From: Planctomycetaceae bacterium
Lineage (GTDB): Bacteria; Planctomycetota; Planctomycetia; Pirellulales; Thermoguttaceae
DNA: 12,607 nt
Direction: 5' to 3'
Assembly: GCA_031266315.1 (NCBI GenBank)
Contig: JAISBG010000570.1
Coordinates: 1 to 12,607, forward strand
This document shows, one piece after another, positions 1,763 through 12,607 of this stretch. The position numbers were made by a program, and so were the translations under genes. Each line of letters begins with the position of its first letter. The stretch's first letter is position 1. The notes under the pieces are model-generated. The model searched no databases. It saw only the letters and a program-made list of their open reading frames with translations, and was not told the origin of the DNA.

Positions 1763-1848
1763 GGCAATCAAGGTGGGTGACCTTTCGCTGAAAGGTTGCG
1801 TCGGCGTTAGCCGACAGTGAACCAGATTAACGACGGCAAATGATTTGG
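1763..1848 (+). repeat. Structured intergenic repeat, copy 1 (left half only)
   Basis: It begins with GGCAATCAAGGTGGGTGA. Hairpin A follows, with arms ACCTTTC (1780-1786) and GAAAGGT (1790-1796) around loop GCT. Hairpin B has arms GTCGGC (1800-1805) and GCCGAC (1810-1815) around loop GTTA. It then has the family's core words GTGAAC, AGATTAAC and GGCAAATGATT, and breaks off just before the yidC stop codon. The right arm seen in the other three copies is missing, so this is a truncated copy. Confidence 0.75.
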
Positions 1849-1856
1849 AATTCTTT

Positions 1857-4478
1857 TTATTTTTTTCTTTTGTTCTTTTTATTAACCTGTTCGAGTTTTC
1901 GTTGTTCGGCGGCTTTTTCTGTTATTTCGTGGATTAGTTTACTGAAAAAACCTTCTTTTTGGGGAGTTTTTGGGTCATTATATTTTGCGGAGTTTTTTGA
2001 AGAATATTTTGAAGCGTTTTTTGTATTTTTTTTTCGATCTTTTGTCTCGGTTGGCGGCGGAGTGATTTCTTTGGGCGTTTCTTCAACCGGTTTTTTGGGA
2101 ATAAACCGCCGTTCCAGCAATCCCCATGTTGTCGAAACAATAAAGTAAATGCAAAGACCGCTTGGTATTTTGAAGAACAAAAATCCCATAAAAATCATCA
2201 TGTATTGCATCATTTTCCGTTGCAACCGGCTTTGTTCATCGGTTGGCGGCGGCATCATGACCGCCTGTTGAATCAGGAACAGAACAATTGTCAGCAACGG
2301 CAGCAAATTAAAATAAGGACCCAATGCAAAAATAGCGGCAAAACTTGTTCCGGTACCGGTATTGAAACTCGTCCAGCCGATGGAAGTCCAGAACGAACTC
2401 CAATCGAAAAGCATATCCGGCGCGGAAAGATCACTGCACCACCGGAATGTCGGCGAAATCAGCGGTGTTCCGTAAAGTCCGGCGTCAATCGATAACGCTT
2501 TGTACAATCCAATAAAAATCGGCAACTGGATGAAAAGCGGAAGACAACCGTTCATCGGATTATAACCATGTTTTTTGTACACGGCTCTCGTGGCGTTGGA
2601 ACGGGCTTGCATATCATCTTTATATTTTTCGTTGATGGCTTTGAGTTCCGGCATAATATCTGCCATTTTGATGGCACCCAACGCTTGTTTGATACTGAGC
2701 GGAAACAATAAAAGCCGCACACAAATTGTCAACGCGATAATTGCCACCGCATAACTCATACCGAGTGAATGAAAGAAATGCAAAACCACAAGCAACAGTT
2801 TTGCGACAACCCCAAACCATCCGTAAGAGATTGTTTCGCTGAGTTGATGTTCGGCAAGAATCGCGGTATCTTTGGGACCGAGAAAAAGGGAATACTGATG
2901 TTTGAGTTCTTCGCCGGGTTGCAACACCGTTTCGCGACTCCACAATCGAAACGAAATATCCGTCAACATATTCCATTCGGTATTTTTTTCTCCGACACGG
3001 ATTGGAAACGACCGAATGTGCATGGCGTTTTCGTAATCCTGATGTTGCGGTTTCAGAGTACATTGAAAATACAACGAATCAACACCGATGTAATCCAACG
3101 GTTCATCGATCCAAAGTTTATCATTTTTATCAGAAGCAATAACGGTGTTGGCGATTACTTGACTGGCGTTGTTGTGAAACCGGACAACGAGGTCGCGGAT
3201 TCCGTAACCGCCCCAACCGGGACCTGTTTTCCGTACATACCAACCGCCTTCCAACGGCAAACCGGTAGGACCATCGAGTTGGTAAGCAACTTTATGCTCT
3301 TTCGTATCAAGGTTGCGGATTTCGACCTGAAACGTTAATTCATATCCCGCTCCAACCGGAGGTGTTTTCTCTTCAACCTGTTCGACTTTCGCCAAGCGGT
3401 AAGTTTTCACCATTTCAAGATTCCAATCGGGAACCGCACGCCGAAATACGGCTTCGTTTTCTGTTGCGGAAACAAGTTCCCAAGATTCCTGCCGCAACGA
3501 TACGCCCGGAAGTTCCAGATCAAGCGTCGGGTCACGCGGAATCATTCCTTTCATTTTGGAATTACTGACCTTCAGACTCGCAGGAAGATCAAGTTGATGA
3601 TCGTCAACCTGTTGAAGTGTTGTTAAAAAAGAAAGTTGATCGGATACCGTGCTGTTTTTATCGGGAAACCGACCATTGAACCGACTGCCCAAAACCGCTC
3701 CACGCAAACCGCCAAGACGACGATATTCTTCATAATCCTTTGGAACCGATTCCGGTCGAATCACATCCATTGGGTATTGACCAAGAATTATTCCCAACCC
3801 GTCAAATGTTTTCTCTTTTCGTAATAGGGTTAGTTCGATATAATCGTTTGGCTTTGTTTTCAGCAAACAGTTCCGCAAATCGTCGAATTTTTTGATTTGT
3901 GTTGTTTCAAAGGCGTCGGTTTTTTTATTTTTCAGGTCGAACCGAATAATCTGATCGCCGACCATTAAACCGAATAATTGAGCCGGAGTTCCGTGTCCGA
4001 CAACCTGAACCGTAACACCTTCGCCGTTTTTTTCCGCTTCAACCGGGTCGACAACGATTTGACCAAGATAACCGGACAACTCCTGAACATCGCGATATTT
4101 TGCGATATTCAGTTCGGCTCTAACAATTGCCGCCCCTTGGTTGGTCAAAGTTACGAGCATTTTATACGGACTTTTCGGGTCGATAGAACCGAGAGTTGCC
4201 CAAGCGGGTTGTGCGGTGGTTGCTTCGATATTTTTTTTCGGTTCAGTGTCTATTTCTGCTGCCGAAGGTTTTTCCTTTTCAAGTTCAGGAACCAACGGTT
4301 TATCTAAGAGATTCTGTTGGTTTTTCTGTTGCTGTTGTTGGCGAAGTGCTTCTTGTTGCTGTTGGTTATTCGAAGAGGTGAGCCAAAGATGAACAAACAA
4401 AATGCCCATCAAAACCATTAAGAATAATGTATTACGTTCTTGAAGGGAACGGCGTGAATCGGGAAGAAGTGATTGCAT
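1857..4478 (-). CDS. yidC: Membrane protein insertase YidC with PDZ-like insertion, 873 aa
   Basis: YidC/Oxa1-family insertase of the inner membrane, acting alone or with SecYEG to insert and fold membrane proteins. TM1 is at residues 17-34, followed by a Gln-rich linker (38-55). The periplasmic region spans about 100-550. The insertase core runs from about 553 to 792: Arg588 in ICVRLLLFPLSIKQ matches the conserved groove arginine, then PMNGCLPLFIQLPIFIGLYK (641-660) and PSGLCIYFIVSTTWGLLERR (772-791). A basic Lys/Asn-rich tail (795-873) is suited to ribosome contact. The protein is far longer than the roughly 550 residues usual in proteobacteria. Part of the excess is a segment at about 150-235 with VVGHGTPAQLFGLMVGDQIIRFD, which reads as a PDZ-like fold. 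No clear Shine-Dalgarno sequence precedes the ATG at 4478. The usual rnpA/rpmH neighbours are absent here. Confidence 0.95.
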   Translation of the reverse strand: MQSLLPDSRRSLQERNTLFLMVLMGILFVHLWLTSSNNQQQQEALRQQQQQKNQQNLLDKPLVPELEKEKPSAAEIDTEPKKNIEATTAQPAWATLGSIDPKSPYKMLVTLTNQGAAIVRAELNIAKYRDVQELSGYLGQIVVDPVEAEKNGEGVTVQVVGHGTPAQLFGLMVGDQIIRFDLKNKKTDAFETTQIKKFDDLRNCLLKTKPNDYIELTLLRKEKTFDGLGIILGQYPMDVIRPESVPKDYEEYRRLGGLRGAVLGSRFNGRFPDKNSTVSDQLSFLTTLQQVDDHQLDLPASLKVSNSKMKGMIPRDPTLDLELPGVSLRQESWELVSATENEAVFRRAVPDWNLEMVKTYRLAKVEQVEEKTPPVGAGYELTFQVEIRNLDTKEHKVAYQLDGPTGLPLEGGWYVRKTGPGWGGYGIRDLVVRFHNNASQVIANTVIASDKNDKLWIDEPLDYIGVDSLYFQCTLKPQHQDYENAMHIRSFPIRVGEKNTEWNMLTDISFRLWSRETVLQPGEELKHQYSLFLGPKDTAILAEHQLSETISYGWFGVVAKLLLVVLHFFHSLGMSYAVAIIALTICVRLLLFPLSIKQALGAIKMADIMPELKAINEKYKDDMQARSNATRAVYKKHGYNPMNGCLPLFIQLPIFIGLYKALSIDAGLYGTPLISPTFRWCSDLSAPDMLFDWSSFWTSIGWTSFNTGTGTSFAAIFALGPYFNLLPLLTIVLFLIQQAVMMPPPTDEQSRLQRKMMQYMMIFMGFLFFKIPSGLCIYFIVSTTWGLLERRFIPKKPVEETPKEITPPPTETKDRKKNTKNASKYSSKNSAKYNDPKTPQKEGFFSKLIHEITEKAAEQRKLEQVNKKNKRKK

Positions 4479-4664
4479 GAAAGTTGACGAACCGGACGGT
4501 TTATAAAACAGGAGGTTTTCATTTAAGATTCACAATCATAACAAAACATCTCCAAAAAACAACCGGAGAGCAACACCGAAAATAACAAAGTTAAAAAAAG
4601 ACAAACTAATAAAAAACAAACCGCAGAACAACGTGAAAAGAACACAAAAGATGCGAAAAAAGAT
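4479..4664. other. Upstream region of yidC, no gene seen
   Basis: This 186-base stretch is purine (A) rich on the plus strand and pyrimidine rich on the yidC strand. It must hold the yidC leader and probably its promoter, but no convincing -35/-10 pair stands out. A Lys-rich plus-strand frame ending at 4676 has no start codon. Confidence 0.4.
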
Positions 4665-4881
4665 GGGCAATCATAAGGTAGAATGAGGTGGGCGATGTTT
4701 TGCTAAAACATCGCGTCGGCGTTAGCCGACTGGGAACTCAATTAACGATGGCAATTCGTTATTACCAACTGTTTCGGAATCTGATTGCCAGCCGGAAACA
4801 GAGGCAAAGTCGGCTATTGCCGACGCGACCTTTCAGCGAAAGGTCACCCACCTACAAAAGGTTGCCCACCAGATGATTGCC
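4665..4881 (+). repeat. Structured intergenic repeat, copy 2 (both arms)
   Basis: Left arm: hairpin A has perfect 10-base arms GCGATGTTTT (4692-4701) and AAAACATCGC (4705-4714) around loop GCT. Hairpin B has arms GTCGGC (4715-4720) and GCCGAC (4725-4730). Centre: GGCAAT (4750-4755) pairs with ATTGCC (4784-4789). Right arm: a second B hairpin (4809-4824, loop TATT), then arms GACCTTTC (4827-4834) and GAAAGGTC (4838-4845) around loop AGC. The end AAAGGTTGCCCACC (4857-4870) looks like a duplicated terminus. It lies between the small gene at 4964-5290 and yidC. Confidence 0.8.
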
Positions 4882-4940
4882 GATGAAATATTACCAATTA
4901 TTTTACTATTCCGGCGGGAAACATCTAATCCGGTAGAATC
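4873..4940 (+). repeat. 68-bp tail sequence, copy 1
   Basis: This stretch follows repeat copy 2 and matches 9281-9348 without gaps, with six mismatches by eye (about 91% identity). It contains the words ACTATTCCGGCG and CTAATCCGGTAGAATC. The match ends sharply at GAATC in both copies. Confidence 0.8.
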
Positions 4941-4963
4941 AGCAATTTTTATGTCAACACGAT

Positions 4964-5290
4964 TTAATTCTGCAATTCGACTTGAGTTTGAAATTCGATA
5001 ATGACTGGTTTTTGAGTTCGTGTGCGGCGTTTTCGTTTTGATTCGCACCATTCTTTGGTCATTTGTTCGAAAACATCCGGCGATTCATACCGAATAACTC
5101 CTCCTGATTCAGGCATTGGTCCGATAAGTCCCTTGAAAACAGGACGACCACGAAGACTGATGTCTGTACTGCAATCATCTGTACCAATTTGAATATGGCG
5201 ATGCCGGATTTCTTCTTCGCTCGTGTAATCCCGAATACGATAATCCCCCTCAGGACCTCGCGTAACAACCCGATAAATGTGTCGTTTCAT
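4964..5290 (-). CDS. Small hypothetical protein, 108 aa
   Basis: I do not recognise this protein. It is soluble-looking, with no signal peptide or membrane segment. It starts MKRHIYRVVTRGPEGDYRIRD, has an acidic patch (EEE near residue 25), a middle segment rich in Gly/Pro (FKGLIGPMPESGG) and a strongly basic stretch KRKRRTRTQK at about 85-94. Codon choice resembles that of the neighbours, and no competing frame is better. The start ATG at 5290 has no obvious Shine-Dalgarno sequence, as for yidC and lepB. It is divergent from lepB and separated from yidC by repeat copy 2, so it is probably its own transcription unit. The basic C-terminal patch could contact nucleic acid, but this is speculation. 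Confidence 0.6.
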   Translation of the reverse strand: MKRHIYRVVTRGPEGDYRIRDYTSEEEIRHRHIQIGTDDCSTDISLRGRPVFKGLIGPMPESGGVIRYESPDVFEQMTKEWCESKRKRRTRTQKPVIIEFQTQVELQN

Positions 5291-5477
5291 AGTTTTGCTT
5301 TAGATGTTAAATTATTAGTTAGTTGGTTAATCAGTTGATTATTGGTTCTGCGAATTGCGAATAATGTCTGAAGTTCAAAATCGTCTGAAAACCGGTTGGA
5401 AACAACGTTTTTTCCGCTTCGTTGTTTTTTGCGAAGAAACAGTTTTCCCGGCTCTTTCGGCACATTCCGATTTACGG

Positions 5478-5483
5478 TATAAT
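5478..5483 (+). promoter_or_regulatory. Possible -10 element (TATAAT) for lepB
   Basis: An exact TATAAT lies 64 bases upstream of the lepB ATG. The -35 position at the usual 17-base spacing reads TTTCGG, a poor match, so the call rests mainly on the -10 hexamer and its position in the 257-base gap between divergent genes. The rest of that gap holds an AT-rich GTTA/GTTG-repeating stretch (5306-5345) and the palindrome at 5523-5536. Confidence 0.3.
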
Positions 5484-5522
5484 AAGCGACAATCCTTATT
5501 TTTATACCACGAAACTTTTACC

Positions 5523-5536
5523 GGAAAATATTTTCC
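5523..5536. promoter_or_regulatory. Perfect 14-bp palindrome before lepB
   Basis: GGAAAATATTTTCC is a perfect inverted repeat ending 11 bases before the lepB start codon. A dimeric repressor could bind here, or it could be chance in AT-rich DNA. No Shine-Dalgarno sequence is present in the same interval. Confidence 0.3.
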
Positions 5537-5547
5537 AGCGTATCCCG

Positions 5548-7380
5548 ATGAACCGTAAAAAATCATCTATTCCGCAAGAATCTCCCACAGCCGCAAAACC
5601 GGAAGAGCCGACAAATAATGTTCGGGTTATTCGGGAATACGTCGAAGCCTTAGCAACCGCTCTTGTTTTGGCGTTTTTCTTTAAAGCGTTTGTAGCGGAA
5701 ATGTTTATTATTCCGACCGGCTCTATGGCAACAACTCTGATGGGACGGCACAAAGATGTCTGTTGCGAACAGTGCGGATTTCCTTTTCAAATCAGTGCCA
5801 GCGAAGAATCAAACGACGGCGCGGAACATCCGCGAAACGCTTATGATTTGCCAAGCGTTTTAGCCGGAACTTGTCCGCAATGCCGTAACACAATGTATGT
5901 CGGAAAAAATAATGTTGATAAAAAAATATTCCAATCGTTCAACGGCGACCGGATTTTTGTTAATAAAAGTCAATTCGATTTCCGTGACCCCACTCGTTGG
6001 CATGTTACCGTATTTCGTTATCCGGGAAAACCGCAAGTCAATTATATTAAACGGCTTGTCGGTGTTGAAAATGAAACGGTTCTTCTCCGTAACGGTGATG
6101 TGTTTGTCAAAAAAGACGGCGAAACGGAGTTCGCTATTCAGCGGAAACCGCTCCGTTCCTTGCTTTCGATGTTGCGTCCGGTCGATGATAACGATTACGT
6201 TCTTCCCAAACTTCATCAAATCGGTTTGCCAACCCGTTGGTTCGATGACAAGGGAAATTGGGACAGGTCGGAAGATTACAAATCGTTTCAAATAACGCCT
6301 GATGTTGCGGCAAATTCTTCAACAGCAATAACATGGTTGAATTACCGGCATATCGTTCCTTCTTCCGATGACTGGTATTATTTGTCGCAAGAAATGTTGC
6401 CGCCGAATGGATTGGTTAATAATCAACAATTGATCACTGATTTTGTCGGTTATAATTCGGGGATTGTTTATTCGCCGGATCATCCGATCATGTTTGATTC
6501 GGGTTTAACCATTTCGACGCGGGAAGTTCATCGAAACGGCAAACCTCGTAAAGAATTTTTTTGTCAGAAAAGTCTGAACGGTATGGGGTTGAATTGGGTG
6601 GGCGATCTGACGGTTGCTTGCCGGTTGCATATCGAACAGCCGCAAGGATTGTTTTTGTTGCGGTTAGTCAAAGGAGGAGTTGTTTTTCTGTGCAGTATTG
6701 ATTTCCGTTCCGGCAACGCAACACTTTCTATTCCTGATTTTCCGGAATTTCCGCCGGCGGTTGCTCCGACACCGCTTCAACATTCGGGAACATTTGATCT
6801 GATGTTTTGCAATTGTGATGAAGAACTGCGTCTTATGGTCAACGGCAAGGAAATTGATTTTCAGGGAAAAGGGCGTTACGATTTTTGGTGTCAGCCGGAC
6901 AGTTTGCTGACACGGGATCGAAGTCCAAACCAACTTGATTTGGTTCCGGCGGGAATCGGTTCTCAAGGAGCCGCCGTTCAAGTTGAACATCTTAAAGTGT
7001 TACGGGATTTGTATTATATTGCTTGTGATCGTTTGCTGGATTTGCAGTGTGATTTGCTGAATCCGCCATTTCGTGACGAATATTCCTTGACGGAAAATAC
7101 GGTTAATAAGATTTTTTCCAATCCGGAATATTGGCGTAATTTTGGTAAAACAAATGCGGTGAGTTTCGAACTTGGTAAAGATCAATTTTTAATGCTTGGC
7201 GATAACAGTACACGAAGTTCGGATGGTCGTCTTTGGCGGCGTGATGATTCTCCGCTTTATGTTGATCGGACTCTTTTGATTGGCGAAGCGGTTTTCGTTT
7301 ATTGGCCTCACGGTCTCCGTATTCCCGGAACGCGAATTGCTCTCATTCCTAATTTACAAAAGTTACGATTTATTGACTGA
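5548..7380 (+). CDS. lepB: Signal peptidase I with zinc-ribbon-like and large beta-rich insertions, 610 aa
   Basis: Type I signal peptidase, which cleaves Sec/Tat signal peptides on the outer face of the inner membrane. A single TM segment (about 31-52) leads into IIPTGSMATTL with nucleophile Ser59. The general base is Lys168 in YIKRLVGV. The later box is GDNSTRSSDGRLW (551-563), with Asp559 and Arg561 in the usual positions. Two features are unusual. A CxxC pair (Cys73/76 and Cys109/112, plus Cys72) right after the catalytic serine looks like a zinc ribbon. Residues of about 195-540 separate the lysine box from GDNS. That insert has alternating beta-strands (DLTVACRLHIEQ, GTFDLMFCNCDEELRLMVNG, VQVEHLKVLRDLYY) reminiscent of a LamG/concanavalin-like sandwich. 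E. coli LepB has about 324 residues. The ATG at 5548 is chosen because upstream in-frame sequence has only a TTG and no membrane or conserved residues. rsmE follows after 12 bases, so they are probably co-transcribed. Confidence 0.93.
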   Translation: MNRKKSSIPQESPTAAKPEEPTNNVRVIREYVEALATALVLAFFFKAFVAEMFIIPTGSMATTLMGRHKDVCCEQCGFPFQISASEESNDGAEHPRNAYDLPSVLAGTCPQCRNTMYVGKNNVDKKIFQSFNGDRIFVNKSQFDFRDPTRWHVTVFRYPGKPQVNYIKRLVGVENETVLLRNGDVFVKKDGETEFAIQRKPLRSLLSMLRPVDDNDYVLPKLHQIGLPTRWFDDKGNWDRSEDYKSFQITPDVAANSSTAITWLNYRHIVPSSDDWYYLSQEMLPPNGLVNNQQLITDFVGYNSGIVYSPDHPIMFDSGLTISTREVHRNGKPRKEFFCQKSLNGMGLNWVGDLTVACRLHIEQPQGLFLLRLVKGGVVFLCSIDFRSGNATLSIPDFPEFPPAVAPTPLQHSGTFDLMFCNCDEELRLMVNGKEIDFQGKGRYDFWCQPDSLLTRDRSPNQLDLVPAGIGSQGAAVQVEHLKVLRDLYYIACDRLLDLQCDLLNPPFRDEYSLTENTVNKIFSNPEYWRNFGKTNAVSFELGKDQFLMLGDNSTRSSDGRLWRRDDSPLYVDRTLLIGEAVFVYWPHGLRIPGTRIALIPNLQKLRFID

Positions 7381-7392
7381 TTTTTTTGTACC

Positions 7393-8133
7393 ATGAGCAA
7401 TCGTTTTTTCCTTGATCCGGCAATCTCAACAATTGATGATAATCGTGCTGTTCTTGGCGGCGACGAAGCCCATCATTTCAGCCGTGTTATGCGAGGCGAA
7501 GTTGGAGACGAAATCATTTTGTTCGATGGTTCCGGTTTTTCTTACCGTAGTTGTGTTGAGTCGGTCAGTAAAACAACTGTTGCGGTTCGGGTTATTGAAA
7601 CATTACCGGACAATATTGAATCACCAATTCGTTTGACGGTGGCAACTGCTCTGCCGAAAGGTGATCGGCAACGTTTTTTGGCAGAGAAATTAGCGGAACT
7701 TGGAGTTGCCCGTCTTATTCCGTTACGATTAGAGCGAAGTGTTGCCCGTTCAGATGCGGCAGTTGCATTGCGGTTGCGGCGTTATGTCATTGAAGCGGCA
7801 AAACAATGTGGTCGGAATGTTCTTATGGAAATTACAAACGAAATGCCGCTCACGGAATTGAACGATTTTCTGACGAATCAAGGCGATGTTACAAAATTCC
7901 TGCTCCACCCGCTTGCGCTCGGCACTGTAGGACAAACAACACCGCAAATAATTCTCGCCAATGAATTACCGAAACAAATTATAGTTCTTATTGGACCGGA
8001 AGGAAGTTTCACTGATCAGGAAATTGAAACGGCGTTGAATTTCGGTTTCCAACCGCTTGATCTCGGTGCCAGAATTTTACGTACAGAAACCGCCTGTATT
8101 GCCGTTGCCGCAGTTTTTTTAACTTGCTCCTAA
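7393..8133 (+). CDS. rsmE: 16S rRNA (uracil1498-N3)-methyltransferase RsmE, 246 aa
   Basis: Cytoplasmic SPOUT-family methyltransferase that modifies U1498 of 16S rRNA (E. coli numbering) using S-adenosylmethionine. An N-terminal PUA-like domain (about 1-70) has the typical GGDEAHHFSRVMRGEVGDEI. The SPOUT domain (about 75-245) shows ALPKGDRQRFLAEKLAELGV, IPLRLERSVAR and EAAKQCGR. The knot and SAM-binding motifs are LIGPEGSF (199-206, Ser where many have Gly) and LGARILRTETA (224-234). Length matches the family (about 240-250). It starts 12 bases after the lepB stop with no clear Shine-Dalgarno sequence, consistent with an operon with lepB. Confidence 0.95.
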   Translation: MSNRFFLDPAISTIDDNRAVLGGDEAHHFSRVMRGEVGDEIILFDGSGFSYRSCVESVSKTTVAVRVIETLPDNIESPIRLTVATALPKGDRQRFLAEKLAELGVARLIPLRLERSVARSDAAVALRLRRYVIEAAKQCGRNVLMEITNEMPLTELNDFLTNQGDVTKFLLHPLALGTVGQTTPQIILANELPKQIIVLIGPEGSFTDQEIETALNFGFQPLDLGARILRTETACIAVAAVFLTCS

Positions 8134-8222
8134 GAAATTGTGCGCAAATAAATTATCGTTTTTGTTGCGAATTGCCGGGAGATTTTGTTTCTTTAATGAT
8201 TTTTATTGCCGATTCATGTCCG

Positions 8223-9104
8223 ATGACAAAACTTTACGCATTTGAATCTCATTTTTTTGATATTGACGGTTTTCGATACCATTATCTTGACGAACAACGT
8301 CCAAGAAATGCGGTGAACCGTGAAGTTTTGTTGATGGTTCATGGTAATCCGACGTGGTCGTTTTACTGGCGCAATCTTATTACGGTATTCCGTGACCGGT
8401 ATCGGGTGATTGCGGTGGATCATCTTGGTTGCGGTTTATCCGACATGCCGGACGAATCGCGTTATCCGTTTACTTTGGAACGCCGGATAAATGATCTTTG
8501 CCGATTGATTGAGGGGTTGGATTTACAAAAGGTTACGCTAATTGCTCATGATTGGGGCGGTGCGATTGGAATGGGAGCGGCGGTTCGGTTGCCGGACAGA
8601 TTTGACCGGTTTGTGTTGATGAACACCGCCGCATTTCGCGGGTTTCAGTGTCCGTTACGGATTCGGGCGTGTCGGATACCCGGTTTAGGGCGGTTGTTGG
8701 TTCAAGGCTTTAACGTCTTTGCTAAAGGGGCAACCAGAATGGCGATTGCCAAACGGAAAGGGTTACCGAAAGAAGTTCGCGACGGTTTGACGGCTCCTTA
8801 CAATTCTTGGGCACATCGAACGGCGTTGTATCGATTTGTGACGGATATTCCGCTTTCACCGCGTCATCCGACTTACCAAACACTTAGCGACATTGAGGAA
8901 GCGTTGCCGAAATTCCGTAACAAACCTGTTTGTTTAATTTGGGGAATGTTGGATTGGTGTTTTACGCCGGACTATCTTAAACGTTTCCTTCAATTCTATC
9001 CGGAAGCCGATGTTTACCGTCTCAACGACGCTCACCATTATCTTGTTGAGGATGCCCCTGAAGAAGTTATAAACGCATTAGACCAATTTTTGAAACGTCA
9101 TTAG
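8223..9104 (+). CDS. Alpha/beta hydrolase, haloalkane dehalogenase / OleB-like, 293 aa
   Basis: Alpha/beta-fold hydrolase of the haloalkane dehalogenase superfamily. HGNPTWSFYWR (40-50) gives the oxyanion region with Asn42. Asp110 in AHDWGGAIGMG is the nucleophile, with Trp111 next to it. Asp244 in WGMLDWCFTP is a plausible acid, and His272 in NDAHHYLVEDAPEE is the catalytic base. An aspartate rather than serine nucleophile fits dehalogenases and OleB beta-lactone decarboxylases. The segments LNTAAF-like (MNTAAF), LLVQGFNVFAKGA, APYNSWAHR and FVTDIPLSP resemble the OleB group as I recall it, so OleB-like is preferred over a true dehalogenase. No oleA, oleC or oleD gene is visible here, so the pathway is unproven. 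The start at 8223 gives MTKLYAF; an in-frame ATG at 8196 is possible. The gene lies 89 bases after rsmE on the same strand. Confidence 0.85.
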   Translation: MTKLYAFESHFFDIDGFRYHYLDEQRPRNAVNREVLLMVHGNPTWSFYWRNLITVFRDRYRVIAVDHLGCGLSDMPDESRYPFTLERRINDLCRLIEGLDLQKVTLIAHDWGGAIGMGAAVRLPDRFDRFVLMNTAAFRGFQCPLRIRACRIPGLGRLLVQGFNVFAKGATRMAIAKRKGLPKEVRDGLTAPYNSWAHRTALYRFVTDIPLSPRHPTYQTLSDIEEALPKFRNKPVCLIWGMLDWCFTPDYLKRFLQFYPEADVYRLNDAHHYLVEDAPEEVINALDQFLKRH

Positions 9105-9120
9105 ATGGAATTTCATTAAA

Positions 9121-9290
9121 GGTAGGCAATCATCAGGTGGGCGATCCGCCCGCTGGGCGGTCGCGCCGGTTGACTCGGCATTGACTCCAAAACGGAAGGC
9201 AACACAATTTGCCATGGTTAATCTAATTCACAGTCGGCGAGTACGCCGACGCGACCTTTTAGCAAAAGGTCGCCCACCTTATGATTGCCT
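9121..9290 (-). repeat. Structured intergenic repeat, copy 3 (complete, inverted core)
   Basis: Terminal inverted repeats AGGCAATCAT (9124-9133) and ATGATTGCCT (9281-9290) bound the element. The left hairpin has CCGCCC and GGGCGG around loop GCT (9146-9160). The central hairpin pairs GGCAA (9198-9202) with TTGCC (9209-9213). The right side has hairpin B, arms GTCGGCG (9233-9239) and CGCCGAC (9244-9250), then a perfect 10-base stem GCGACCTTTT/AAAAGGTCGC (9251-9273) around loop AGC. The core words (GGTTAATCTAATTC) are on the minus strand, opposite to copies 1, 2 and 4. It lies 16 bases after the hydrolase stop codon and could serve as its mRNA 3' structure. Confidence 0.85.
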
Positions 9291-9348
9291 GTGAAATAGT
9301 ACCAATTATTTGACTATTCCGGCGAGAAACACCTAATCCGGTAGAATC
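9281..9348 (+). repeat. 68-bp tail sequence, copy 2
   Basis: Gapless match to 4873-4940 with about six substitutions, in the same plus orientation although the adjoining core of copy 3 is inverted. It overlaps the terminal repeat ATGATTGCC of copy 3. From 9349 to about 9496 nothing further is recognised. Confidence 0.8.
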
Positions 9349-9570
9349 TGAAAAAATTCTTTGAGATAAAAAATAATCAAAATTGTTACTTTCGGCTAAA
9401 TTTTTCTGAGCAATTTTCCGAAAAACTAATTGTCTCTTAACTTGAGATAGTCCAATAACTCGGAAATTATCAGTCAGACCAAACTTATCAATTCTTATGT
9501 TCTCAACTGTGAAATCAGAAAAAATGAAAATATCGGTAAATTACCCAAATTACCTTTGCTTTATGTTAAA

Positions 9571-9954
9571 ATGGGAAGGGGGGGGGGCTACGGAAGATGT
9601 CCCGATAACGAGTGGTCGTGCGGAAGAACGATTACCGCAAATAATTCCGGCAATCGCCGTACCTATTGTTGTTTCAATAAATTCCACCGTCACGATAACT
9701 TCAATTATCCCGCTCCGCAATCTTTATTAGTGTATTTGTGGTTCGTTTTAACGGCAATTTTCCTGATTGCCATTCTGTTTTCCGTATTGTGTTTTGGTTC
9801 CTTTTTTGAAAAGGTTCCGGTTTCCTCTGTATTGTTATTATTCGGCGATGTTATTACGCTGTTTTCTATGTTCCCGATCAATTTTCCTGAAAGTATTTCC
9901 CGTTTGTTTCTCCTGTTCGCCTCGTTTTCGTGTTCACAATTGTGTCCGTTTTAA
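9571..9954 (+). CDS. Doubtful small membrane-protein frame or gene remnant after a poly-G tract
   Basis: From ATG 9571 the frame reads MGRGGGYGRCPDNEW and later gives hydrophobic stretches (QSLLVYLWFVLTAIFLIAILF and VSSVLLLFGDVITLF), ending at 9954, 127 codons in all. No Shine-Dalgarno sequence and no family resemblance are seen. A second start, ATG 9563 (MLKW), and an ATG at 9497 lie in another frame that stops at 9730. With one more G in the tract (11 instead of 10) the MLKW frame would run into this longer frame. This may be a phase-variable gene, a decayed gene, or a chance frame. Further frame changes near 9940 would extend it to about 10012, which favours decay. Confidence 0.25.
   Translation: MGRGGGYGRCPDNEWSCGRTITANNSGNRRTYCCFNKFHRHDNFNYPAPQSLLVYLWFVLTAIFLIAILFSVLCFGSFFEKVPVSSVLLLFGDVITLFSMFPINFPESISRLFLLFASFSCSQLCPF
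9578..9587 (+). repeat. Homopolymeric G(10) tract after ATGTTAAAATGGG
   Basis: Ten consecutive G bases follow ATGTTAAAATGGGAA (9563-9577). The same ATGTTAAAATGGG string precedes the G(11) tract in the DUF1559 gene. In the matched frame both loci read MLKW, then one to three residues, then GGGA. Confidence 0.8.
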
Positions 9955-10068
9955 CGAATGGTTTCGATTGGCGGTTGCGGGGCTTTTTTTTATTTTACAC
10001 TCAAACCGTAAATGAGTTAAAAACTTAGTGTAATATTTTAATGGAATTTTTGTTAAAAATTTTTAAAG

Positions 10069-10227
10069 GTAGGCAACCATAAGGTGGGTGACCTTTTGCT
10101 AAAAGGTCACGTCGGCGTACTCGCCGACAGTGAATTAGATTAACAACGGAAACTATGTTGCCTTCCGTTTTGGAATCAATTATCGCTCAACCGGCGCGAC
10201 CTTTTAGCAAAAGGTCGCCCACCTTAT
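10069..10227 (+). repeat. Structured intergenic repeat, copy 4
   Basis: It starts GGTAGGCAACCATAAGGTGGG. Hairpin A is a perfect 10-base stem GTGACCTTTT (10088-10097) and AAAAGGTCAC (10101-10110) around loop GCT. Hairpin B has arms GTCGGCG (10111-10117) and CGCCGAC (10122-10128) around TACT. The core reads GTGAATTAGATTAAC, then a TTGCCTTCCGTTTTGGA stretch shared with copy 3. The right stem is GCGACCTTTT/AAAAGGTCGC (10196-10218) around loop AGC, then CCACCTTAT. The outer right terminal repeat is lost after 10227. It sits upstream of the autotransporter-like gene. Confidence 0.85.
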
Positions 10228-10477: not shown

Positions 10478-12607
10478 ATGAAAACAAAAAAACTCTGGAA
10501 GTACGCTGTTGCGACAGCCGTACTTTTCGCAACATTGCCGATGTGCACATTTGCACAAACAGGTGTTACTGTGTCGGAAAAGATCACCTCGCAACAACTC
10601 ACGACGATTTATGATCCCAATGATGCGGCTGCAGGCGTTGAGATTAAGATTACAGGTGTTGATGCCGGTAATGTTCTTTACAAATCCGGAAGCACTGCAC
10701 AAAATAAACCATTTGTTGCAGGTGCCGGTACAATTCAACTCAATGGAGTTGACGTAACGAAGGCAACAACTCCCACTTCTCCTTGGGGTGGACCGAGTGT
10801 TGGAGTTTTGATCAACAACAGTGCCATGACTCCGCTATCCAACAAGACAATCAACACCGGTGACATCAATATCGCTGGAGAAGTTTCCGATGGATACTTG
10901 GTTGGTTTCTTGTATCATAGCGATTATGACTATGATTATAATTCCGGGACTTACAACGACCAAGCGTTTGACGGTACGCTGACAATCGGTAACGTTAATG
11001 TTGAGAATGTTACTGATACTGAATTTACTTACACTAGTGCTTATGGTGTAGAATTCGATACGGCTATCACAGGTAAAGTAACGGTAGGGAACATTAAAGC
11101 CACTGCTGACGGTGCTTATAGTTCTGCTGATGGTTTCTCCTCCTATGGTTTGACAGACGGAGCAACTGTTACTCTCGGTAATGTTGATGTAACAGCCCAA
11201 TATGCCTACGGCGTTGATGTCGGTGATATTGGTGATAGCGATAAAACTACCACCGAAAAGTTTACTGTCGGAAATATCAATGTTACGAGTAAAGATGGAT
11301 ACGGTACTGGTGTTTATGTAGATATTCAGGAAGATGGTGTATTCGAGGCAAAGGATATTACCGTTAAAGGTACGAATGATTATGGAGTTGAAGGTGTTTC
11401 TGCTTACTCTATTGCTAAGGGTGGTACTTTCAATGTTGGCAAGGTTCAGGTTGAAGGTGATAGTTATGCCACAGGTATTGCAATTTACGATTCAGGAACA
11501 TTTACCGTAACGAATGATGTTGTCGCAAAAACCAATGCCGCTAAAGATTCCTATGTTACTGTTACAGGTATCGATACTGGGGGTTGGGGTTACGGTGGTA
11601 ACAGTAATCTCACGATTGACACGAAGGACGGTGATGTTCAAATCAGCGGTATTGCAAAAAATTCGGGTAATACCGCCCAAAGTATTAACATGAATAGCGA
11701 CAATGATACCCTTACCGTTACGGGTGCGAACAAGCACGCGAACAAAGGTCAAGCGTTTGATGTGTCGGGTGCTGAAAATGTTCGTTGGGAGACCGACGCC
11801 GAATACACTAAATCATCATTCACCACATCGGCAGATACCGTACATCAAGTTGCAACAGGTAAAAATGTTGGTACTAATGGCGGTGTTAATACTGACGGTA
11901 ACAAATACACGGTTGGCAATGCGGCGGATAACAAGAGCGCAGGTACTCTCGCTATCAGTACATTAAATGCCGGTGATGTTGTTGTGAACAATGGAATTCT
12001 TGCTATTGACGGCAGCAAAACCAGTAACATTAACTCTCTTACGATTGGTAACAATAATAAAGACGGTCAGGCTTCGGCGGCTGTTGCCCTTTACGGTAAC
12101 GTCGCGTCTGGTCAAGTTGCCGGTTTAACGATCAATAGTGGTACAGTTACTACTTTTGATAATGCGGTTAAGGATCCGACGACGAAAGCAGAAATACTTT
12201 CGTTGAGTACGATTACCGAGTACGTCAAGAAAGGGAATAATTACGTTGCGAAAAATCGGGAGAAGGCGAGTTTAGCGGACGGATTTTTGCTTCCGGCTTC
12301 GATTCACCGTTACAACACCGGTTGGGAAGCAACACGTGATCATTTGATTTCCGGCGGACAGACTTCGTGCAAACCGTGCGAATCCGTTTGTAATCCTTGC
12401 GATCCTTGTAACAAATCTGATGGTTTCTCGCTTGGTTGTAGTGCTTGGGTAAATTATGTTGGACGTTCCAATTCTTACCGCAGTTCCTATTCCAATATTG
12501 GAATTAACAACGGCGATTGGGAAATCGGAACCGACGGAATTCAGGTTGGTCTTGACCTTTACAAATCGAGCAAAGCTCAACTCGGTTTGCTGTTTGGTTA
12601 TGAAGGT
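10478..12607 (+). CDS. Secreted repeat protein with autotransporter-like beta-barrel (3' truncated by window)
   Basis: The frame is open for 710 codons to the window edge. A Sec signal peptide is clear: MKTKK, hydrophobic core to about residue 20, cleavage likely after TFA26. Residues 30-580 form a Gly/Asn/Thr/Val-rich passenger with imperfect repeats around [TF]xVGN[IV]xV followed by YGV-like words (168-174, 201-206, 231-238, 262-269, 318-325), as expected for a right-handed beta-helix. A cysteine cluster, Cys631, 634, 638, 641 and 644, forms a linker. From about 649 the pattern GFSLGCSAWVNYVGRSNSYRSS and WEIGTDGIQVGLDLYKSSKAQLGLLFGYE matches the start of a type V autotransporter barrel (alternating polar/aromatic strands, GxQVGxD, GYE). 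The protein would be exported by Sec, cut by signal peptidase I, and its passenger displayed or released at the outer membrane. Role (adhesin, surface layer or other) is not visible. Confidence 0.8.
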   Translation, partial: MKTKKLWKYAVATAVLFATLPMCTFAQTGVTVSEKITSQQLTTIYDPNDAAAGVEIKITGVDAGNVLYKSGSTAQNKPFVAGAGTIQLNGVDVTKATTPTSPWGGPSVGVLINNSAMTPLSNKTINTGDINIAGEVSDGYLVGFLYHSDYDYDYNSGTYNDQAFDGTLTIGNVNVENVTDTEFTYTSAYGVEFDTAITGKVTVGNIKATADGAYSSADGFSSYGLTDGATVTLGNVDVTAQYAYGVDVGDIGDSDKTTTEKFTVGNINVTSKDGYGTGVYVDIQEDGVFEAKDITVKGTNDYGVEGVSAYSIAKGGTFNVGKVQVEGDSYATGIAIYDSGTFTVTNDVVAKTNAAKDSYVTVTGIDTGGWGYGGNSNLTIDTKDGDVQISGIAKNSGNTAQSINMNSDNDTLTVTGANKHANKGQAFDVSGAENVRWETDAEYTKSSFTTSADTVHQVATGKNVGTNGGVNTDGNKYTVGNAADNKSAGTLAISTLNAGDVVVNNGILAIDGSKTSNINSLTIGNNNKDGQASAAVALYGNVASGQVAGLTINSGTVTTFDNAVKDPTTKAEILSLSTITEYVKKGNNYVAKNREKASLADGFLLPASIHRYNTGWEATRDHLISGGQTSCKPCESVCNPCDPCNKSDGFSLGCSAWVNYVGRSNSYRSSYSNIGINNGDWEIGTDGIQVGLDLYKSSKAQLGLLFGYEG

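Follow-up and report, generated by a model that had tools for sequence, protein, structure and literature searches.

The stretch of DNA studied here, a 12,607-nucleotide contig of a Planctomycetaceae bacterium (GenBank assembly GCA_031266315.1, contig JAISBG010000570.1; C770 of genome G000 in our numbering) that we call the window, carries seven arms of a hairpin repeat, one solitary and the others arranged as three inverted pairs. The arms share one layout: GGTRGG, a ten-pair stem starting with the last G of that motif, the loop GCT, and then GTCGG (L arms) or mostly GCCGG (R arms), with the hairpin itself (hairpin 1) spanning 23 nt. In L arms the stem is perfect and a second hairpin follows immediately, while R arms carry one extra stem base. 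A sequence-only reading had noticed the hairpin at four places, with stems CCTTTC/GAAAGG, ATGTTTT/AAAACAT, CCGCCC/GGGCGG and CCTTTT/AAAAGG around GCT; all four are intergenic and have these stems, but the count rises to seven with the minus-strand arms at 4820–4852, 9246–9278 and 10191–10223, and the second, third and fourth of the noted copies are inverted pairs rather than units. An exact arm pattern recovers six of the seven arms and a structure-aware covariance model all seven (each E <1e-9), whereas none of 200 shuffled windows contains a pattern match with up to three mismatches, against six in the window.

Arm A, the solitary one (1772–1804, plus strand), is of L type, with the tag GGTGG, hairpin 1 at 1777–1799 and the loop GCT. 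It matches the pattern without mismatch, scores 53.8 bits with the covariance model (R1) and is recovered by folding, as is its hairpin 2, GTCGGC-GTTA-GCCGAC, at 1800–1815 on the same strand. Its outer pairs read GTGA/TTGC, with two G.T wobbles, and not GCGA/TCGC as first described. Element B (4687–4852) is, by repeat comparison, an L-L dimer with 100 nt between its inverted arms. Its left arm (4687–4719, plus strand; stem GCGATGTTTT/AAAACATCGC) and right arm (4820–4852, minus strand; stem GTGACCTTTC/GAAAGGTCGC) are found by pattern, covariance model and fold, and folding places their second hairpins at 4715–4730 (plus strand, GTCGGC-GTTA-GCCGAC) and 4809–4824 (minus strand, GTCGGC-AATA-GCCGAC).

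Repeat comparison further identifies element C (9136–9278, canonical orientation on the minus strand) as an L-R dimer, and elements C and D (10083–10223, plus strand) are one element in opposite orientations. The R arm of element C (9136–9169, plus strand; 53.7 bits with the covariance model) reads GCGA, a bulged T, CCGCCC-GCT-GGGCGG, TCGC and GCCGG; the copy noticed there is thus of a second arm type, and the GTCGGC hairpin lies at the other end of the element. That end holds the L arm (9246–9278, minus strand; stem GCGACCTTTT/AAAAGGTCGC), detected by all three methods, and its hairpin 2 in the fold (9233–9250, minus strand; GTCGGCG-TACT-CGCCGAC). Element D comprises an L arm (10083–10115, plus strand; stem GTGACCTTTT/AAAAGGTCAC), the hairpin 2 predicted for it by folding (10111–10128, plus strand; GTCGGCG-TACT-CGCCGAC) and, in the R position with a GCCGG end, an arm with an unbulged CCTTTT/AAAAGG stem (10191–10223, minus strand), both arms again being found by pattern, covariance model and fold. 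Two of the loops attributed earlier to the second hairpin, AGTA and TATT, belong to minus-strand arms as read on the plus strand. Folded as single-stranded DNA, the five L arms reach z-scores between -4.0 and -8.1, the two arms in the R position -2.3 and -4.6, and the whole of element D -10.8. The arms of element D pair with each other in this fold; yet across 68 L-R elements, the stem allele of one arm shows no association with that of the other, as described below. A 15-nt unit, GGTAGGCAACCATAA, precedes the L arm of element D (10068–10082, plus strand), resembles the arm's own foot and occurs as tandem repeats ahead of some other arms.

The arms belong to a dispersed family resembling repetitive extragenic palindromes (REPs), with hundreds of mostly intergenic copies and genuine stem covariation, in line with the sequence-only reading. 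The source genome is an assembly of 4.24 Mb in 883 contigs (65.8% complete), in which the arm pattern has 421 exact matches, about 100 of them listed individually, and a backwards-read control has none. Statistics were compiled from the window and 100 of the 883 contigs taken whole (534,672 bases, 490,757 non-N), of which 80 were sampled by number and 20 for listed pattern matches, mostly at least two each. An additional 22 loci were chosen for their likeness to element D, which biases toward intact L-R copies the counts that they enter, i.e. those on dimers, allele association, the spacer tree, anchored pairing and stem sharing. The anchored arm set (n = 196, one evidently spurious arm kept) was defined by the flanks GGYRGG and CGYCGG only, with loop and pairing unused.

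Directly before the stem, the tag is GTGG in 129 and GTAG in 18 of the 150 arms with perfect inner stems (147/150), the loop is GCT in 194 of the 196 anchored arms, and the extra base of the R arms is T in 71 of 72. The two hairpins contrast: hairpin 1 has a fixed loop and a changing stem, while hairpin 2 has a nearly constant stem (GTCGGC/GCCGAC, exact in 85/99) and a changing loop (GTACTC 35, GATA 27 and GTTA 23 as counted). The dinucleotide following hairpin 2 shows no tag-dependent pattern. We also observed a recurrent duplication of the hairpin tip, in which GCTATTTGCT (16 cases) or GCTATTTGTT (5 cases) replaces the loop GCT (for example in L007, L027, L127 and L150).

The changing letters of hairpin 1 remain paired. 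Across nine pairs in each of the 196 anchored arms, 1720 of 1764 pairs (97.5%) are Watson-Crick, with 19 G.T, 14 A.C and 11 others. Among 63 distinct arms, 97.3% of cells pair, as against 84.7% after partner shuffling, and the covariation score is 0.447 against 0.207 in shuffles, none of 500 being as high; when partner columns are slid by one to three positions, pairing drops to 29–53%. Both sides have changed in eight of the ten pairs, giving sub-families with alternative complementary stem residues. The count of further pair types does not exceed that in shuffles (484/500 as high), indicating that the stem alleles are few and discrete. Furthermore, covariation is confined to the arm. The two stem halves of one arm are tightly associated (0/2000 shuffles as strong), whereas the arms of one element show no association over 68 L-R elements (inner stems 644 and 909 of 2000 shuffles, outer stems 324 of 2000), and the inner and outer stems of the L arm are weakly associated (31/2000).

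Left stems are mostly CCTTTC, CCTTTT, CCGTTC or TGTTTT/C, and right stems mostly CCCTTC or CCGCCC. The outer pairs are GCGA/TCGC in 127 arms, GCAA/TTGC in 62 and GTGA/TCAC in 4, with part-changed forms GTGA/TCGC (10, against one GCGA/TCAC), GCAA/TCGC (6) and GCGA/TTGC (4). On a tree of the spacers of 54 elements, whose resolution is poor (35 of its 51 inner branches are open), the alleles change 20 times for the L inner, 20 for the L outer, 20 for the R inner and 12 for the R outer stem, the shuffled means being 20.95, 18.2, 24.6 and 15.6, respectively. Elements with spacers at least 93% identical (18 pairs) have the inner stem in common in 72% of cases; at 88–93% identity, sharing falls to 49% and 36%, against 41% and 33% overall, and the inner stem alleles are thus uncoupled from the spacer by about 7–12% spacer divergence, whereas linkage persists further for the R outer pair (71% against 52%). 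The trend, seen as a direction without a rate and on a weak tree, is that inner hairpin alleles exchange or switch faster than the adjoining spacer diverges.

In the same 54 elements, the spacer departs from consensus at 13.9% of sites, whereas 2.0% of stem pairs are non-Watson-Crick. Spacer letters private to one copy make up 0.82% (33/4047, a lower bound) and unpaired stem changes 1.02% per site, and spacer divergence is unrelated to stem mismatches (Spearman 0.004). Stem changes that last are thus paired, while recent unpaired changes are about as frequent as private spacer letters, from which we infer a pairing filter that acts at copying and little protection afterwards; we go no further than that, because the private letters are a minimum and the spacer tree has a median end branch of 0.051. 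The data accordingly fit such a filter better than in-place selection on every copy, and the exclusion of simple duplication by the sequence-only reading was too strong, in that the copies resemble duplicates of a mobile doublet even though the stem covariation stands.

Most arms occur as inverted dimers: 85 pairs (68 L-R, 15 L-L and 2 R-R) compared with 62 arms that stand alone, a few of them perhaps truncated by contig ends. Singlet arms have diverged further than arms in doublets when substitutions are counted (0.78 and 0.29, p 0.0013, n = 36 and 138), as predicted for REPINs, doublets of REPs, in the accessible part of PMC3116915, but not when unpaired positions are counted. With open reading frames (ORFs) called crudely, 176 of 188 arms lie outside ORFs although intergenic sequence makes up 23.5% of the bases, and 19 of 72 elements stand between convergent genes, a moderate enrichment over the 14.7% of intergenic bases found there; both biases fit tolerated insertions. 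Copies lie nearer to the 3' ends of genes (median distance 76, n = 43) than to their 5' ends (181, n = 35), and elements are oriented with transcription as often as against it (11 and 10). Whole dimers also form clusters (L082 5395–5748, L244 43–323, L254 2–618 and L255 111–367), especially in genome G003 and often close to contig ends, suggesting that the repeats break assemblies.

Related genomes carry the family in altered form. The exact pattern occurs in two of 21 genomes of the genus, while the covariance model has matches in 13 of the 21 at E 0.1 (one genome with only two) and, at E 0.001, in 15 of 119 genomes and 2 of 40 genera of the family; with at most about 150 candidates per genome scored across the genus and at most 59 across the family, these counts are lower bounds. 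The further copies and relatives that the sequence-only reading had suggested seeking with such a model are therefore present. The arms of relatives differ in stems, loops and tags: GTAG itself is the tag in 19 of the 21 arms displayed, and the loop is GCT, GCC or TCC. In G003, dimer arrays often have GCGACCTTTC and GTGATGTTTC as their two arms around GCC, and GTGG is the tag in 25 of 29 G003 arms and 12 of 12 G009 arms. A pattern search of named genomes listed at least 12 stretches among its matches, two of them from Kf353_bin151, one of the Kf353 bins, which probably derive from termite guts; the other ten (nine actinobacterial records and the planctomycete SZAS-2), with one match each, were taken for chance. 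Viral contigs contained no pattern match.

Element C lies downstream of the gene at 8214–9104. Downstream of the orthologue of that gene, the element is absent in all five relatives compared (1500 bases in G016, 1500 in G011, 164 in G014, 614 in G005 and 343 in G006), with no covariance-model match at these loci, although all five carry the family elsewhere. This is as expected of an insertion; from the comparison of these sequences, element C appears to be a lineage-specific insertion or loss, and the intergenic sequence is too diverged to give insertion ends or target duplications.

Taken together, these arms probably constitute a REP family of the GTAG superfamily, arranged mostly as inverted dimers like bacterial interspersed mosaic elements (BIMEs) or REPINs, and, by analogy, would be substrates on which a group-3-like TnpA_REP, a Y1 single-strand transposase, acts in trans. 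The family, which the sequence-only reading could not match to a named one, can thus be placed by its GTRG tag as a new, lineage-specific member of the GTAG kind, the mobiliser not having been found beside the repeats. The closest biochemical precedent is the Sm REP of Stenotrophomonas maltophilia, served by a group 3 TnpA_REP, which according to the accessible text of PMC8266576 has the tag GTAG, an 8-bp perfect stem and the loop GCT. In the same text, cleavage is abolished by a changed loop G or by T as the third tag base (GTTG) and is affected or almost lost when the middle of the stem holds a mismatch. Replacing blocks of the stem by their complements does not alter it drastically, and a GTGG tag of Marinomonas Mb remains a substrate, cut at CC or, less efficiently, at CA. 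Sm-like rules acting on many dispersed copies would give a fixed loop and a covarying stem. The enzyme would read tag, loop and pairing in single-stranded DNA and hardly the stem letters; unpaired arms would seldom be copied, such that the stem changes that persist are paired ones, and these paired variants would spread and reassort among the copies.

Several results weigh against this interpretation. The covariance model gives no match at E <0.01 within up to 1.5 kb on each side of 36 Y1_Tnp loci. The only Y1_Tnp gene found in G000 (L001) is flanked by a different palindrome and scores as IS200/IS605, with 21.6 bits for REP_Tyr_transpos against a cut-off of 80. None of the 21 genus genomes exceeds the cut-off of the model for the REP-associated tyrosine transposase (RAYT), and the carriers G003, G006 and G016 have no Y1_Tnp even at E 1, despite at least 39 arms with one identical score in G003, which look recent. 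Moreover, G009 retains CCGACC/GGGCGG with an A.G mismatch in the stem, the loop is TCC, lacking the first G, in G010 and in one G015 arm, singlets and doublets do not differ in unpaired positions (0.28 and 0.25 of 10, p 0.62), and GTGG is the main tag in G000 where Sm is sensitive to the third tag base.

The linked REP-associated transposase suggested by the sequence-only reading was accordingly looked for and not found. One tagless partial covariance-model match (E 0.01) lies beside a Y1_Tnp gene in L051, and the pattern has no match at 26 transposase loci. Four of the five Y1 proteins scored exceed the cut-off for IS200/IS605, the remaining one having a weak likeness to RAYTs; no hairpin repeat accompanies the RAYT-like genes of L261 and L262. 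Among the 12 genus genomes with ten or more matches, 9 have a Y1_Tnp, as do 5 of the other 9 genomes, which amounts to no clear association. No REP was seen to flank its own RAYT, the arrangement that defines a REPtron; this is not proof that a RAYT is absent, as the assemblies are incomplete and broken at repeats. Separately, IS200/IS605-like Y1 genes across the genus often sit inside palindrome arrays of their own, of a different kind, as at L001 (1501–1845, and downstream to 2383), L044, L047, L049, L050, L051, L056, L058 and L060, with palindromes such as CGACCCCTTGCGGGTCG, GCCCTGAAAGGGC and CCGTAGGT...ACCTACGG.

The main rival for the origin of the paired changes is that the copies are ordinary duplicates in which replication template switching (quasipalindrome correction) copies one stem arm onto the other, with neither selection nor a hairpin-reading enzyme. 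Such a mechanism, published for RNA genes in the accessible part of PMC8794818, would produce paired multi-base alleles with few intermediates and inner alleles that lose their spacer association within about 7–12% divergence, both of which we observe, and the 16 tip duplications of GCTATTTGCT resemble hairpin-tip copying. It leaves unexplained the fixed loop, the fixed tag, the bulged T (71/72 R arms) and the dispersal. Unpaired stem changes, at 0.0102 per site, occur no less often than private spacer letters, at a minimum of 0.0082 per site, which gives no sign of continued correction once a copy is inserted, although a median spacer end branch of 0.051 leaves room for it. We regard template switching as unlikely to be the whole explanation, but it could act together with an enzyme filter. 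It is distinctly doubtful that single hairpins rather than whole elements are the units of exchange; in that scheme, a single-strand enzyme other than a linked RAYT would cut each arm and swap paired cassettes between elements, leaving the arms in linkage equilibrium and mismatched arms hardly copied.

Two further explanations have less in their favour. Host-functional RNA or terminator hairpins kept by selection on transcripts would suit the intergenic position, the modest convergent-gene excess and the proximity to 3' rather than 5' gene ends, and also the surplus of T.G wobbles over C.A at outer pair 2 (8 against 2). Overall, however, G.T and A.C departures balance (10:10 in the 54-element set, 19:14 in the 196 anchored arms) without the wobble preference expected under RNA selection. 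In addition, elements run along and against transcription almost equally, no T-run follows the window hairpins, an Rfam search of the window gives no match at the gathering score, and the repeat was found in 2 of 40 family genera, so that an RNA function is very improbable. Of the folded DNA or RNA first proposed, the data overall show no strand or RNA preference, apart from that one outer pair. Classical miniature inverted-repeat transposable elements (MITEs), whose termini a DDE transposase binds by sequence, would suit the inverted termini of about 35 nt, the high copy number and the nesting among other repeats. But an enzyme that recognises its sites by sequence could hardly tolerate termini that vary while pairing locally and that change at one end independently of the other. 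Tag, loop and bulge, the parts that stay fixed, are single-strand features, and in the contigs examined no transposase-like ORF is seen by eye between inverted arms 300–2600 nt apart, where the ORFs look like host genes. MITEs are therefore the most improbable of these explanations.

The module TAATATTTCAGTGGAATTTTC occurs in the window at 10031–10051 and at 62 further places in the sampled contigs; it was considered as the outer end of the element and rejected, an arm following within 90 nt after only 27 of the 63 copies, and is hence an independent repeat. It often adjoins these and other palindromes, stands at a hairpin-free locus in G005 (L185, downstream of the gene) and is perhaps a landing site. 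A 14-mer census of G000 (L089–L168) shows at least two more abundant palindromes, CCCACCGCAACGCGGTGGG (with TAACAA/TTGTTA flanks) and CTGCCTGAAAGGCAG. In the window, a run of eleven C (1479–1489) lies inside the ORF at 322–1671, whose N-terminal motif looks pilin-like by eye, and a run of ten G lies at 9578–9587; both may mark slippage or assembly sites. A long open ORF (10478–12607) immediately downstream of element D is repetitive, has a signal-like start and, by eye, resembles a surface autotransporter.

The family offers a natural mutagenesis set for the question of which REP features a transposase reads, previously studied with single enzymes: in several hundred copies, and in a dozen genomes of relatives, the stem letters float whereas the tag, the loop, the bulge and the pairing are kept largely constant, a constraint pattern in agreement with what group-3 TnpA_REP requires in vitro. 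The family also adds dense REP dimers for an uncultured planctomycete genus and makes the gap of the enzyme concrete and testable.

In comparison with known systems, the family shares with the Sm REPtron a tag directly before a perfect stem and the loop GCT, pairing and the loop G being required and the stem letters largely free in Sm (accessible text of PMC8266576). It differs in its 10-bp stem (8 bp in Sm), its mostly GTGG tag, its bulged-T partner arm, the lack of a linked transposase among the loci searched, and its phylum. Like the REPINs of Pseudomonas fluorescens SBW25 as described in the accessible part of PMC3116915, it forms inverted doublets with conserved ends and a looser spacer, and its singlets have more substitutions than its doublets, though not more unpaired positions; unlike the SBW25 groups, which are tied to specific RAYTs, its arms usually differ from each other and vary independently, with no linked RAYT found. 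The mosaic of unlike palindromic units recalls the BIMEs of E. coli with their y, z1 and z2 REPs (PMC8266576, same text), but the E. coli units share a mismatch bulge, whereas here L arms are perfect and only R arms have a one-base bulge. A literature search covering few subscription papers found no description of this hairpin family in the accessible text, and its stems and second hairpin are not among the descriptions in the accessible portion of PMC3733652. That portion, on the GTAG superfamily of Di Nocera et al. (2013), describes a GTRG tag at one end, a 6–13 bp stem, a short loop, sub-families that differ by complementary exchanges in the stem, and dimers, heterodimers among them, that carry their tags on the outside and are mostly 20–100 bp apart, such families being known in Planctomycetes; its members include GTAG-20 of O. 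terrae (GTGG) and families of R. baltica. The GTRG tag, the short palindrome of 20–40 bp with its short loop, the many intergenic copies, the complementary stem variants and the dimers are all present here, and the family agrees with the superfamily in every feature tested.

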